A stretch of 64,000 nt of DNA, taken from Pannonibacter sp. SL95 (GTDB lineage: Bacteria; Pseudomonadota; Alphaproteobacteria; Rhizobiales; Stappiaceae). This document shows positions 43,638 to 48,395 of the stretch, one piece after another; the first letter of the stretch is position 1, and every line of letters starts with the position of its first letter. The notes beneath the pieces are model-generated. The model worked only from the letters and a program-made list of their open reading frames with translations, had not been told where the DNA came from and searched no databases. Location: positions 310,001 through 374,000 of the forward strand of contig NZ_JAPPRC010000005.1 in the NCBI RefSeq assembly GCF_026672425.1, given 5' to 3'. The position numbers and the translations under genes were made by a program.

Positions 43638-46600
43638 TCAGGCGAGCTGGACGTCGGTTACACCCGGGACGGCCTTCAGTGCCCCGGCGATTTCCGGCGA
43701 GAGGCGGAACTTGCCGGGCAGACGGACCTCGACTTCGCGCTTGCCCTCATCCAGCAGCACGACGACGTTGACCTCGCCCTCCCCCTTGGTCGACAGATGA
43801 CGGACAAGGCTCTTCATCGGCCTTTCGTCGCGCAGGAACACGCGCAGGCTCTTCTGCACCCTCGCGGCCATGGCCTCGATCGGGTCGACCTGTTCGATGC
43901 GCAAGGATGGCTCATCGTCACGCATATCTGCGCTGACGAGCACGACCATCGACTTGCCGACCTCCAGCACATCGCGGAACTGGGCCAGCTTCTCTGAGAA
44001 CAGCAGAGCTTCGAACTGGCCGGACGAATCGGAGAAACGAACGATACCCATGCGGTTGCCGGACTTCGTCTTGCGTTCCTGCTTGGAGATCACCGTCCCG
44101 GCGAGGCGTCCAGCCGAAGCACCGCGCTTCACCGCCTCTGAGAACTGCGCCCAGAGCTGCACGCGCATGCGCTCCAGCAGCGGCTGGTACTCGTCGAGCG
44201 GATGGGCAGACAGATAGAAGCCGATGGCCTGATGTTCGCGCTGCAACCGCTCGGCCGGCAGCCAGCCGGACACTTCGGCGAGCTGCAGGTCATCGCCTGC
44301 GCCACTGCCACTGCCGAACATGTCGTTCTGACCCATGCTGGCGTTGGATTCGGTGCGCTGTGCCTGCCCGATGATGCGGTCGAGCCCTTCGAACACCCGG
44401 GCGCGGTTGCTCTCCAGACAATCGAAAGCGCCGGCGTTGACGAGGCTTTCCAGCACCCGCTTGTTCAGGAACTTCGGCGAGATGCGCGAGGCAAAGTCGC
44501 CAATGCTTTTGAACGGCCGGTCGCCGCGGACATCAACAATGTGCTGGATCGCCTGTTCGCCGGCCCCCTTGATCGCGCCCATGGCATAGACAATCCGGCC
44601 GTCATCGACGTCGAAGGGAACCATGGACCGGTTGATGGACGGCGGCAGAACGGCAACGCCCATCCGCCGTGCCTCCTGACGGAAGTCGCCCAGCTTGTCG
44701 GTGTTGCCAAGGTCGAGCGTCATGGACGCGGCCAGGAACTCGACCGGATGGTTCGCCTTGAGCCAGGCCGTATGGTAGGAGACCAGCGCATAGGCGGCCG
44801 CGTGCGACTTGTTGAAGCCGTAGTTGGCGAACTTGGCCACGAGGTCGAAGATCGTGCCGGCCTGATCCTTGTCAACGCCCCGCTCGACGGCGCCATCAAC
44901 GAAGCGGGCGCGCTGGACTTCCATCTCGGCGGCGATCTTCTTGCCCATGGCGCGGCGCAAAAGGTCTGCTTCGCCGAGCGAATAGCCCGACAGGACCTGG
45001 GCGATCTGCATCACCTGTTCCTGGTAGACGATGATGCCGTTCGTCTCCGTCAGGATCGGCTCCAGCAGCGGATGCAGGTAATCGGGCTCCTGCTCGCCGT
45101 GCTTGACGGCGTTGTAGACCGGAATGTTCTCCATCGGCCCCGGACGATAGAGCGCCACCAGGGCGACGATATCCTCGAACCGGTCGGGCTTCATGCCGGC
45201 AATAGCGCGGCGCATGCCCTGGCTTTCCAGCTGGAACACGCCGACCGTCTCGCCGGCGGCCAAGAGCTTGTAGGTTTTCGGGTCATCAAGCGGCACCGCC
45301 GCCATGTCGACGGTGATGCCCTTGCGGGCGATCAGCTTCACCGCGGTATCAATGACGGTGAGGGTTTTCAGGCCGAGGAAGTCGAACTTCACCAGGCCCG
45401 CTTCTTCCACCATCTTCATGTTGAACTGCGCCACCGGCATGTCGGAGCGTGGATCGCGGTAGAGGGGGACGAGCTGTTCGAGCGGCCGGTCGCCGATCAC
45501 CACACCGGCGGCGTGGGTCGAGGCGTGGCGGTAGAGGCCCTCCAGCTTCTGGGCCATGGCGAGCAAGCGTTCGACGCTCTCTTCCTCGCGCGCGGCCTCA
45601 CGCAGGCGCGGCTCCTCGGCGATGGCCTGGGCCAGCGTGACCGGATTGGCCGGGTTTGCCGGCACCAGCTTGCAGAGACGGTCGACCTGGCCATAAGGCA
45701 TCTGCAACACGCGGCCAACGTCACGCAGCACGGCGCGGGCCTGCAGAGATCCGAAGGTGATGATCTGGGCCACCTGGCTGCGGCCGTACTTCTCCTGGAC
45801 GTAGCGAATGACCTCTTCGCGCCGGTTCTGGCAGAAGTCGATGTCGAAGTCCGGCATCGAAACGCGTTCCGGGTTGAGGAAGCGCTCGAACAGCAGCGAG
45901 AACCGCATGGGATCGAGGTCGGTGATGGTCAGTGACCAGGCGACCACCGAACCTGCACCCGATCCGCGGCCCGGACCGACCGGAATGTCATGCGACTTCG
46001 CCCACTTGATGAAGTCCGCCACGATGAGAAAGTAGCCGGGGAATTTCATCCGTTCGATGACCGAGAGCTCGAACTCCAGCCGCTCCCAGTAGTCCTGCTC
46101 GCTGAGGCCAGGTGCGAGGCCGTGGGCGGCCAGGCGCATGGCCAGACCATCGCGGGCCTGCCGCTTCAGCTCGTCCGCCTCGGCCTTTTCGGCCTCCTCC
46201 GGGTCGGCGTCCGCGCCGGCAAAGCGGGGCAGGATCGGGTTGCGCTTCAGCGGCCGGTAGTGGCAGCGCCGCGCAATCTCGACCGTCGCGGCGGTCGCCT
46301 CCGGCAGGTCGGCAAACAGCGCCAGCATTTCCGCGCGTGACTTGAAGTAATGCTCGGGCGTCAGCTTGCGGCGATCATCGTCGATCAGCACGCGGCCTTC
46401 GGAGATCGCGATCAGCGCGTCATGGGCCTCGTAATCGTCGCGCTTGGGGAAGAAGGCCTCGTTGGTCGCAACGATCGGCAGGCCCTTTTCATACGCAAGA
46501 TCGAGGAACCCCGGCTCTGCCTTTCGTTCAGCGGCCATGCCATGGCGCTGCAGCTCGACGTAGCACCTGCCGTCGAAAGCGGCCGCGAGCCGGTCGAGGC

Positions 46601-47081
46601 GGGTGGCGGCGAGCGCGCGATGGCCGCCGAGCAGGGCCTTGCCGATGGGACCGTGCACGCCGCCGGTCAGCAGAATCATGCCGGCGCTGCGCGATTCGAG
46701 CAGGCTGAGCGGAACATGGGCACGCTGGCCCGTTGGCGTATCGAGAAAGGCGCGGCTGGTGAGCTCCATGAGGTTCATGTAGCCCTGCTCACTCATGGCG
46801 AGCAGCACGACATCGCTCAGCGACGGCTCTCCGCGCCGCTCATCAGCCGCGTCATCACCAAACGCGACAGCCAGCTGGCAGCCGATGATCGGCTGGATGC
46901 CGGATCCCCAGGCCTTGCCGGCAAATTCCTGCGCCCCGAACAGATTGCCCGTGTCGGTGATGGCCAGGGCCGGCTGGTCGTCGGCCTTGGCAAGGTCCAG
47001 CAGCTTCTTGATCGGCAATGCCCCTTCGAGAAGGGACAAAGCGGAATGAACCCGAAGGTGAACGAAGCCGATCTCGGACAT
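43638..47081 (-). CDS. dnaE: DNA polymerase III subunit alpha
   Basis: A 1147-aa replicative polymerase (DnaE1 type). The PHP domain comes first (FVHLRVHSALSLLEGALPIK). The polymerase active site has PVGPGRGSGAGSVVAWSLTI and the aspartates of RVSMPDFDIDFCQNRREEVI. The fingers include ARKGITVDMAAVPLDDPKTY and AYALVSYHTAWLKANHPVEF, and the OB fold near 1000-1080 has AGTVISKQERKTKSGNRMG. It is full length. A LexA-boxed micropeptide gene lies 201 bp upstream on the same strand, so dnaE could receive some of its transcription in the SOS response. Confidence 0.97.
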   Translation of the reverse strand: MSEIGFVHLRVHSALSLLEGALPIKKLLDLAKADDQPALAITDTGNLFGAQEFAGKAWGSGIQPIIGCQLAVAFGDDAADERRGEPSLSDVVLLAMSEQGYMNLMELTSRAFLDTPTGQRAHVPLSLLESRSAGMILLTGGVHGPIGKALLGGHRALAATRLDRLAAAFDGRCYVELQRHGMAAERKAEPGFLDLAYEKGLPIVATNEAFFPKRDDYEAHDALIAISEGRVLIDDDRRKLTPEHYFKSRAEMLALFADLPEATAATVEIARRCHYRPLKRNPILPRFAGADADPEEAEKAEADELKRQARDGLAMRLAAHGLAPGLSEQDYWERLEFELSVIERMKFPGYFLIVADFIKWAKSHDIPVGPGRGSGAGSVVAWSLTITDLDPMRFSLLFERFLNPERVSMPDFDIDFCQNRREEVIRYVQEKYGRSQVAQIITFGSLQARAVLRDVGRVLQMPYGQVDRLCKLVPANPANPVTLAQAIAEEPRLREAAREEESVERLLAMAQKLEGLYRHASTHAAGVVIGDRPLEQLVPLYRDPRSDMPVAQFNMKMVEEAGLVKFDFLGLKTLTVIDTAVKLIARKGITVDMAAVPLDDPKTYKLLAAGETVGVFQLESQGMRRAIAGMKPDRFEDIVALVALYRPGPMENIPVYNAVKHGEQEPDYLHPLLEPILTETNGIIVYQEQVMQIAQVLSGYSLGEADLLRRAMGKKIAAEMEVQRARFVDGAVERGVDKDQAGTIFDLVAKFANYGFNKSHAAAYALVSYHTAWLKANHPVEFLAASMTLDLGNTDKLGDFRQEARRMGVAVLPPSINRSMVPFDVDDGRIVYAMGAIKGAGEQAIQHIVDVRGDRPFKSIGDFASRISPKFLNKRVLESLVNAGAFDCLESNRARVFEGLDRIIGQAQRTESNASMGQNDMFGSGSGAGDDLQLAEVSGWLPAERLQREHQAIGFYLSAHPLDEYQPLLERMRVQLWAQFSEAVKRGASAGRLAGTVISKQERKTKSGNRMGIVRFSDSSGQFEALLFSEKLAQFRDVLEVGKSMVVLVSADMRDDEPSLRIEQVDPIEAMAARVQKSLRVFLRDERPMKSLVRHLSTKGEGEVNVVVLLDEGKREVEVRLPGKFRLSPEIAGALKAVPGVTDVQLA

Positions 47082-47282
47082 GGACGGTGCGCCCCGGTGG
47101 TAAGATACCCCCTGCCCCGCTGCGGGACTGGAATGGAGCCGCTCACATTCCGAACGGGATGGCGCGAGTCCAGCTTGTCCCGTGATGCCCCGAAGCAGCG
47201 GCCCCTGTCGAGACCTTATAGGGTGCGCGGGAAACCGATCCAGAGATTCCTGCGGGGCGACATAGCTGACGCCGGCACGGGG

Positions 47283-47381
47283 TCAGTTCAGCGCGAGGAG
47301 AACCTCGCCCCAGACAGCGACAGTTGCAGCGAAGACAACGAGCGAACCGAAAGCGGCGATATCACGGGCCAGGAAGGTCAT
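47283..47381 (-). CDS. 32-aa single-span membrane peptide, candidate SOS-induced division inhibitor
   Basis: A minus-strand frame of 32 codons plus TGA that encodes MTFLARDIAAFGSLVVFAAT followed by VAVWGEVLLALN. It has a short charged N-terminus (R6, D7) and one hydrophobic span of about 20 residues. GAGGAG lies six bases before ATG 47381, an ideal spacing; a second ATG five bases earlier leads to a stop after two codons. A perfect alphaproteobacterial LexA box lies 81 bases upstream. Caulobacter SidA is a 29-aa SOS-induced inner-membrane division inhibitor with the same general design; homology to it is not shown, only the parallel in size, topology and control. It sits between lolD and dnaE. 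Confidence 0.72.
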   Translation of the reverse strand: MTFLARDIAAFGSLVVFAATVAVWGEVLLALN

Positions 47382-47462
47382 GTCATGCTCCTCTCGTCAA
47401 ACCGGCGTCACAGTCCGCGCCAGCTCTTGGTCCGGGCCGTTCCGGCCCCTTGAGAAGACATT

Positions 47463-47477
47463 GTTCTCTTTTTGTTC
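47463..47477 (-). promoter_or_regulatory. LexA box GTTC-N7-GTTC
   Basis: GTTC (47463-47466), seven bases (TCTTTTT), GTTC (47474-47477). This is a perfect match to the alphaproteobacterial LexA consensus. It lies 81 bases upstream of the 32-aa membrane peptide gene. On the minus strand a TTGCGA (47481-47486) next to it may be a -35 element, so LexA would cover the promoter. Confidence 0.75.
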
Positions 47478-47566
47478 TGTTCGCAAGCCACAAAATCACG
47501 CAGGGCCAGAGAAGCCTCGTTCTTCGCACAAGAGGGTGAACGAAGCGTGAACTTTGCCGTCCGGCC

Positions 47567-47623
47567 GTTTACTGAACTGCGCAGGTGCGCCTGACCGGAT
47601 CACCTGCGCAGTTCAGTAAACGC
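47567..47623. repeat. 22-bp perfect inverted repeat with 13-nt loop
   Basis: Arms at 47567-47588 (CGTTTACTGAACTGCGCAGG + TG) and 47602-47623 match exactly as reverse complements. The structure lies 52 bases beyond the lolD stop and 90 bases upstream of the LexA box. It has no T run on either side, so it is more like a repeat element or mRNA-end protector than a classical terminator. Confidence 0.7.
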
Positions 47624-47675
47624 CGGGGCCTGGCGGACACTGCCGCCTCGGAGTGACGGCACAGTCCCTGCCTTC

Positions 47676-48356
47676 TCAATAGTCGAGGATCAGCCCGTCG
47701 CGCAGGGTGATGACCCGGTCCATCCGGCCGGCCAGTTCCATGTTGTGTGTGGCAAAGAGTGCCGCAACGCCGGTGGCACGCACAAGGGCGTGCAGGGCAT
47801 CAAACACGTAATGCGCGGTCTGCGGGTCGAGGTTGCCGGTCGGCTCGTCGAGCAGCAGCAACTGTGGCGCATTGGCGACCGCACGGGCGATGGCAACTCG
47901 CTGCTGTTCTCCGCCCGACAGTTCCGACGGCCGGTGCGTGCCGCGCGCGCCGAGGCGCATATAGGCCAGCAGCTGGCCAGCCCGCTCGGCCGCCGTCTTT
48001 TTCGGCAGGCCCTGGATCATCTGCGGCATCATCACGTTCTCCAGCGCGGTGAACTCCGGCAGGAGATGATGGAACTGATAGACGAAACCGATGTCATTGC
48101 GGCGGATGGTGGTGCGCGCATCATCGCTCAAGGCGCCGCAGGGCTTACCGCCGACATAGACTTCACCGGCATCCGGCTTTTCCAGCAGGCCGGCAATATG
48201 CAGCAAGGTCGACTTGCCGGTGCCCGATGGGGCAACAAGCGCGACCATCTGTCCGGCCTCGAGCGTGAGGTCGGCACCGCGCAGGATTTCCAGCTTGCCG
48301 GAGGCTTCGCTGAAGCCACGGGTGATGCCACTGAGGCGCAGAACGGGCGCGGACAT
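47676..48356 (-). CDS. lolD: Lipoprotein-releasing ABC transporter ATP-binding protein LolD
   Basis: A 226-aa ATPase that powers release of lipoproteins from the inner membrane to LolA. Walker A is [20 protein letters not shown] (the Ala-Pro-Ser form typical of LolD), the Q-loop region [19 protein letters not shown] with [10 protein letters not shown], the signature [20 protein letters not shown], and [13 protein letters not shown] chose ATG 48356 because CAGGAGAG lies upstream; an ATG at 48392 would add 12 residues and start three bases after the lolC stop. It follows lolC directly, as in most proteobacteria. Confidence 0.95.
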
Positions 48357-48395
48357 GGACGAGGTCTCTCCTGAGGATCCGGCTACGGCCATGAT

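Follow-up and report, generated by a model that had tools for sequence, protein, structure and literature searches.

The window analyzed here, a stretch of 64,000 nucleotides from Pannonibacter sp. SL95, contains directly upstream of dnaE a gene of 32 codons which we consider, with a rough probability of three in four, to be a divergent ortholog of sidA of Caulobacter. On this reading, the gene would be repressed by LexA and induced by DNA damage, and by analogy its peptide would stop the synthesis of the septum by acting on the late division proteins FtsW/FtsI/FtsN. The homology is supported at the sequence level by a coding frame under selection, by a promoter layout that includes a LexA box, and by a locus, a motif and a synteny that are those of SidA.

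The gene (positions 47283-47381, minus strand, stop codon included) is housed in a gap of 594 nt between the gene of a LolD-like ABC ATPase and dnaE, and its frame, opened by ATG, encodes the peptide MTFLARDIAAFGSLVVFAATVAVWGEVLLALN. The first-pass annotation had proposed this frame, together with an ideally spaced GAGGAG site, a charged N-terminus and one membrane span, and all of these features were recovered. The GAGGAG ribosome-binding site (47388-47393, minus strand) lies six nt ahead of the ATG, the charges are provided by R6 and D7, the best 19-residue hydropathy is 2.1, and AlphaFold2 predicted a single helix over residues 2-30 with a mean pLDDT of 91. The product is predicted to be a short, SidA-like peptide with one membrane helix, which would insert into the membrane.

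Comparison of related loci indicated that the frame is under purifying selection. The pN/pS ratio was 0.17 over five loci of the genus (pS 0.50, pN 0.083), 0.22 over 24 loci of g6, a large sister genus, and 0.26 over all 30 family loci, which is similar to the 0.16 that we measured for Caulobacter sidA (15 distinct sequences). An unconserved frame with a ratio near 1 had been named beforehand as the outcome that would speak against the gene; the frame proved to be conserved. A search with the single peptide sequence found a match in 72 of 87 family genomes (E≤0.01), and a profile from a wider alignment found one in all 87 (the copy in one genome, G025, has an internal TAG), although the latter count is no independent test, because the wider alignment includes members of the same family. 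With E-values up to 10 allowed, the window peptide matched no Pfam or NCBIfam model, and there was no match in PHROGs, in phages (tblastn of the 32-mer) or in plasmids (tblastn of a 27-mer relative).

The downstream neighbor had been taken for dnaE, and this assignment stands: the gene at 43638-47081 (minus strand) matches TIGR00594 over its cut-off, and the peptide gene, whose stop lies 201 nt upstream, is the next gene before it. The best NCBIfam hit of the LolD-like gene on the other side (47676-48392, minus strand) was TIGR02211 LolD with 247 bits, under the cut-off of 307.75. At all 30 family loci whose neighbors were read (the best-scoring of the 72 matching genomes), the LolD-like gene lies upstream and dnaE downstream of the peptide. 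Of 21 additional loci, six of them from the same family, 20 have dnaE next to the peptide. A simple scan of 47000-47760 found no terminator-like site. This is not evidence of read-through, but transcription from the peptide gene into dnaE is possible. A 27-nt inverted repeat (47561-47587 and 47601-47627; 93% complementary, 13-nt loop, inner 20 nt perfect) is located between the LolD-like gene and the more distant of two LexA boxes; it lacks a T run and is perhaps the terminator of the LolD-like gene.

Upstream of the gene, the perfect GTTC-N7-GTTC box reported earlier at 81 nt from the ATG was found as described (GAACAAAAAGAGAAC, 47463-47477, minus strand), and a second perfect box, which had been overlooked, lies 75 nt farther away (GTTCACGCTTCGTTC, 47538-47552, minus strand). 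The proximal box occupies the spacer of a putative promoter with a -35 element TTGCGA (47481-47486, minus strand) and a weak -10 element CAATGT (47458-47463, minus strand), the latter overlapping the last base of the box. Both elements are predicted from an order-wide consensus, in which TTGaca stands at position -9 of the box. A simple promoter scan of the gap had found no promoter, and the conserved elements emerged only after 63 loci of the order had been aligned at the box. It should be noted that box counts do not separate signal from chance, either in the window (three perfect boxes; shuffles gave a mean of 1.66, and 23 of 100 reached three) or in the genome (166 versus 122 for the reversed pattern). 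What lifts these boxes above chance is their 75-nt spacing, which is kept in all six loci compared from the genus and a sister genus (g1 and g4), the selected frame behind them and the order-wide co-occurrence of box and peptide. Among the 30 family loci, a perfect box precedes the peptide by no more than 400 nt in 24. The motif also fits the Pannonibacter genome, since the single lexA gene found there carries such a box about 50 nt ahead of its own start. A pair of boxes would be less usual in Caulobacter, because approximately 97% of SOS promoters there are described as having a single LexA box (PMC12700426).

To place the peptide in a wider context, we searched 170 genomes of the order Hyphomicrobiales for the DnaE N-terminus, obtained 153 matches and took the dnaE-upstream DNA at 130 loci (30 given and 100 in rank order), leaving out the 23 genomes with the least similar DnaE; because the loci were picked via DnaE, they were not chosen by the peptide. 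A profile built from the family alone gave 67 sense and 3 antisense matches in the 130 gaps (E<1). With an order profile (four rounds, inclusion E 0.01, matches counted at E<0.05), the peptide was identified in 73 of the 130 gaps, representing 26 of 43 families, compared with a single antisense match. The LexA box played no part in the selection of these matches, and yet a perfect box was present within 170 nt upstream of profile position 1 in 63 of the 73 loci, compared with 21 of 2190 shuffled windows. Thus, the co-occurrence of peptide and box in relatives, which had been put forward as a check, was found. If one mismatch is allowed, the figure rises to 71 of 73, which weighs less because 366 of the 2190 shuffles also contain such a box. 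Two boxes within 170 nt were seen in 16 of the 73 loci. The order profile found no match in the remaining 57 gaps; 13 of them contain a perfect box within 800 nt, followed by a short hydrophobic frame in nine cases, and therefore 73 of 130 may be a low estimate.

Alignment of the 63 loci at the proximal box revealed the consensus TTGaca, 3 nt, GAACAAAAa.aGAAC and then AT.aT, which we read as sigma-70-like -35 and -10 elements whose 17-nt spacer is filled by the LexA box. Only 33 of the 73 order matches have a start codon in the window register, three codons before profile position 1, so starts vary across the order; among these, the median distance from box to start codon was 50 nt (29 loci with a box). 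In one genus (g76), all six upstream regions compared (L043, L048, L050, L051, L053 and L055) contain a stretch GAACAAAA[CT]A[AT]ATAC that leads into a strong -10-like TACATAAT; this stretch is perhaps a degenerate LexA site.

The first-pass annotation had also drawn a parallel to SidA of Caulobacter, and the comparison with Caulobacterales substantiates it. SidA (CCNA_02004 in C. crescentus; PMC10769358) is described as a 29-aa inner-membrane division inhibitor that is induced in the SOS response and acts on FtsW (PMC4211646). A lexA mutant is reported to be filamentous, a phenotype absent from the lexA sidA double mutant (PMC12700426), and an AlphaFold 3 model, whose confidence was not high, is described as placing SidA on TM7 of FtsW (PMC13396833). 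Our Caulobacterales sample comprised the 29 genomes behind contigs supplied by a MipZ scan, and 21 of these genomes had a DnaE match. A perfect LexA box lies upstream of dnaE in 12 of these 21 gaps and is missing from the other nine, and the regions contain short peptides, including one of 29 aa in Caulobacter that is SidA by the NCBIfam model NF033228 (74 bits, cut-off 35). Through this model we identified SidA in Caulobacter genomes other than C. crescentus NA1000/CB15: 72 of the 75 genomes from this genus gave a match, the peptide was 29 aa long in all 15 loci read of the 30 fetched, and 13 of these 15 have a LexA box at -64 or -65.

The Hyphomicrobiales profile, from which Caulobacterales were excluded, recognized the frame at the SidA position in 19 of the 21 gaps (E<0.05) in the same register, and it found nothing on the antisense strand of the same gaps. 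The two gaps below threshold were L192 (E 1.1) and L201, which offered 51 nt of upstream DNA. We then compared 17 distinct peptides from the SidA position (L201 was omitted, as were three loci with the same sequence as L196) with shuffled versions of themselves: 14 beat all 500 shuffles of their own residues, and when the hydrophobic pattern was kept, eight beat all 500 and 16 were matched by at most six. The family-only profile was less powerful, with four of the 17 beating all shuffles. Profile against profile, hhalign gave a probability of 85 and an E-value of 6e-6. Judged by these alignments, the peptide has a homologous N-terminal motif in the SidA register. SidA itself lies at the same place upstream of dnaE, usually behind a LexA box.

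On the other hand, NF033228 itself does not reach the family. It did not match the window peptide even at E 10, gave no match over the 35-bit cut-off in any of the 87 family genomes and, in the Pannonibacter genome, none at E≤1; by the model's own threshold the window peptide is thus outside the SidA equivalog. Sub-threshold matches fell on the peptide in five genomes (G018, G031, G057, G064 and G070; model positions 1-17, E 0.06-0.95), while the others in family genomes lay mostly elsewhere. Against a peptide from Brevundimonas the model scored only 20.5 bits. Because the curated model misses the family and the likeness is confined to the first ~18 residues, we regard the window gene as a divergent ortholog rather than a member of NF033228. 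The peptide shares with SidA of C. crescentus its place before dnaE, the LexA box in the promoter, a length of about 30 residues and the N-terminal motif and register. It differs in being three residues longer, in having two LexA boxes 75 nt apart, in a W-x-[DE] motif of the order in its C-terminal half, which is missing from SidA, in lying below NF033228 detection and in having a function that is predicted. Among the matches listed in our literature search, there was no SidA homolog outside Caulobacter.

Similar peptides may also occur elsewhere in the class. We examined 70 dnaE gaps from other alphaproteobacterial families (92 genomes with a DnaE match, two of them belonging to the order; the 40 loci fetched were hand-picked, larger genomes first). 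A perfect LexA box was present within 800 nt in 10 gaps, followed in nine of them by a short hydrophobic frame as judged by eye. A profile of both groups gave four matches at E<0.01, among them L401, which resembles a Caulobacterales sequence, and the order profile alone gave one (L408); the antisense strands had none at E<0.5. In a search of the class with the family alignment, 24 of 289 genomes matched at E≤0.1, and apart from the window itself these matches were short and chance-like. Second copies of the peptide, beginning MIIRD[IV]LALGS, were observed away from dnaE in four genomes of one genus (g76, family f44), at position 7092 of L378 (plus strand), 6903 of L379 (minus), 6729 of L380 (plus) and 7148 of L381 (minus). 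They look as if they sit in integrative elements. Phage integrase matches were over the cut-off in L378 and L379 and below it in L380, the check for an HTH repressor and Prim-Pol/D5 covered L379 alone, and L049 has an SSB gene at the same place as L378.

Several other explanations should be weighed. TisB of E. coli is a small LexA-controlled peptide with a single hydrophobic helix, and a TisB-type SOS toxin has an antisense RNA antitoxin beside its gene. The window gene could likewise encode another SOS-induced membrane peptide, such as a TisB-like depolarizing toxin that slows growth and does not target the divisome. Size, single hydrophobic helix and LexA control would fit this equally, but the locus, the register and the motif match SidA, and we consider such a toxin unlikely.

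A further suggestion, which we also find unlikely, is that the frame is a uORF or leader that adjusts the expression of dnaE by being translated, while its product has little activity of its own. It is true that the peptide precedes dnaE in many families, that a Ribo-seq study of S. meliloti proposes uORF roles and names sORF25 in the dnaE1 5'-UTR (PMC10117765), and that dnaE is listed among genes reported as SOS-regulated in C. crescentus (PMC3323433). However, it is the amino acids that are conserved, beyond the mere frame (pN/pS 0.17-0.26), and the distance from the peptide stop to the start of the DnaE match ranges from 35 to 677 nt (median 156, n=73), which ill suits coupling or attenuation. 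The second copies away from dnaE also argue against it, as does SidA, which at the same place is described as a trans-acting inhibitor (PMC4211646). The one antisense match of the order profile (L217, genome G179) points in the same direction: there the peptide motif runs opposite to dnaE, two perfect LexA boxes precede it by about 240 nt, and it seems to be a genuinely inverted copy that has boxes of its own. Finally, the idea that the boxes serve dnaE as a damage-induced replicative polymerase and that the peptide is a passenger could draw on earlier regulon work that gave such LexA sites to dnaE (PMC3323433) and on the lack of a terminator-like site in the simple scan, but it is hardly credible, given that the box starts upstream of profile position 1 at a median distance of 60 nt (63 loci), that the distance from peptide to dnaE varies widely and that, as judged by eye, a short hydrophobic frame follows the box in nine of the 10 class gaps with a perfect box.

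We therefore return to the SidA-type division inhibitor as the preferred reading. In the undamaged cell, LexA would bind one or both boxes, one of which is flanked by the -35 and -10 elements, and hold the gene silent. After DNA damage, RecA would stimulate the self-cleavage of LexA, the promoter would open and the 32-residue peptide would build up as a single-span protein of the inner membrane. By analogy with SidA, it may then bind FtsW/FtsI/FtsN in the late divisome and hold them inactive, so that division would be blocked until repair is done.

Small membrane inhibitors of division are found in other systems as well. DidA of Caulobacter is also described as a small single-span inhibitor induced by damage, although it has 71 aa, is SOS-independent and acts on FtsN (PMC4211646). 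YneA, SosA, ChiZ and DivS are likewise presented as small membrane proteins that are induced in the SOS response or by damage and inhibit division, and YneA is said to act on FtsW as SidA does (PMC13396833). They differ in belonging to other phyla, and YneA has a LysM domain. With regard to sORF25 of S. meliloti, which is reported to be a translated small ORF (PMC10117765), its position before dnaE1 suggests that it is a member of the window peptide family.

On balance, we lean toward the broader view that, in much of Alphaproteobacteria, the ancestral SOS division brake is a SidA-type micro-inhibitor that is controlled by LexA and encoded just ahead of dnaE. This brake would have diverged too far for current models to detect, its LexA control would have been ascribed wrongly to dnaE, and integrative elements would have taken it up; that the arrangement before dnaE is the ancestral state is what we infer. 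A comparative study of 2012 included dnaE in the LexA regulon that it predicted for alphaproteobacteria (PMC3323433), and our results suggest that the LexA control once assigned to dnaE probably belongs to the sidA-like gene between. If this is true, the reason why dnaE was listed in that regulon would be clear, many Hyphomicrobiales, together with some alphaproteobacteria of other orders, would have a candidate SOS division brake, the translated and unexplained small ORF of S. meliloti would gain a possible function, and dozens of natural variants would become available for mapping the residues that contact the divisome.
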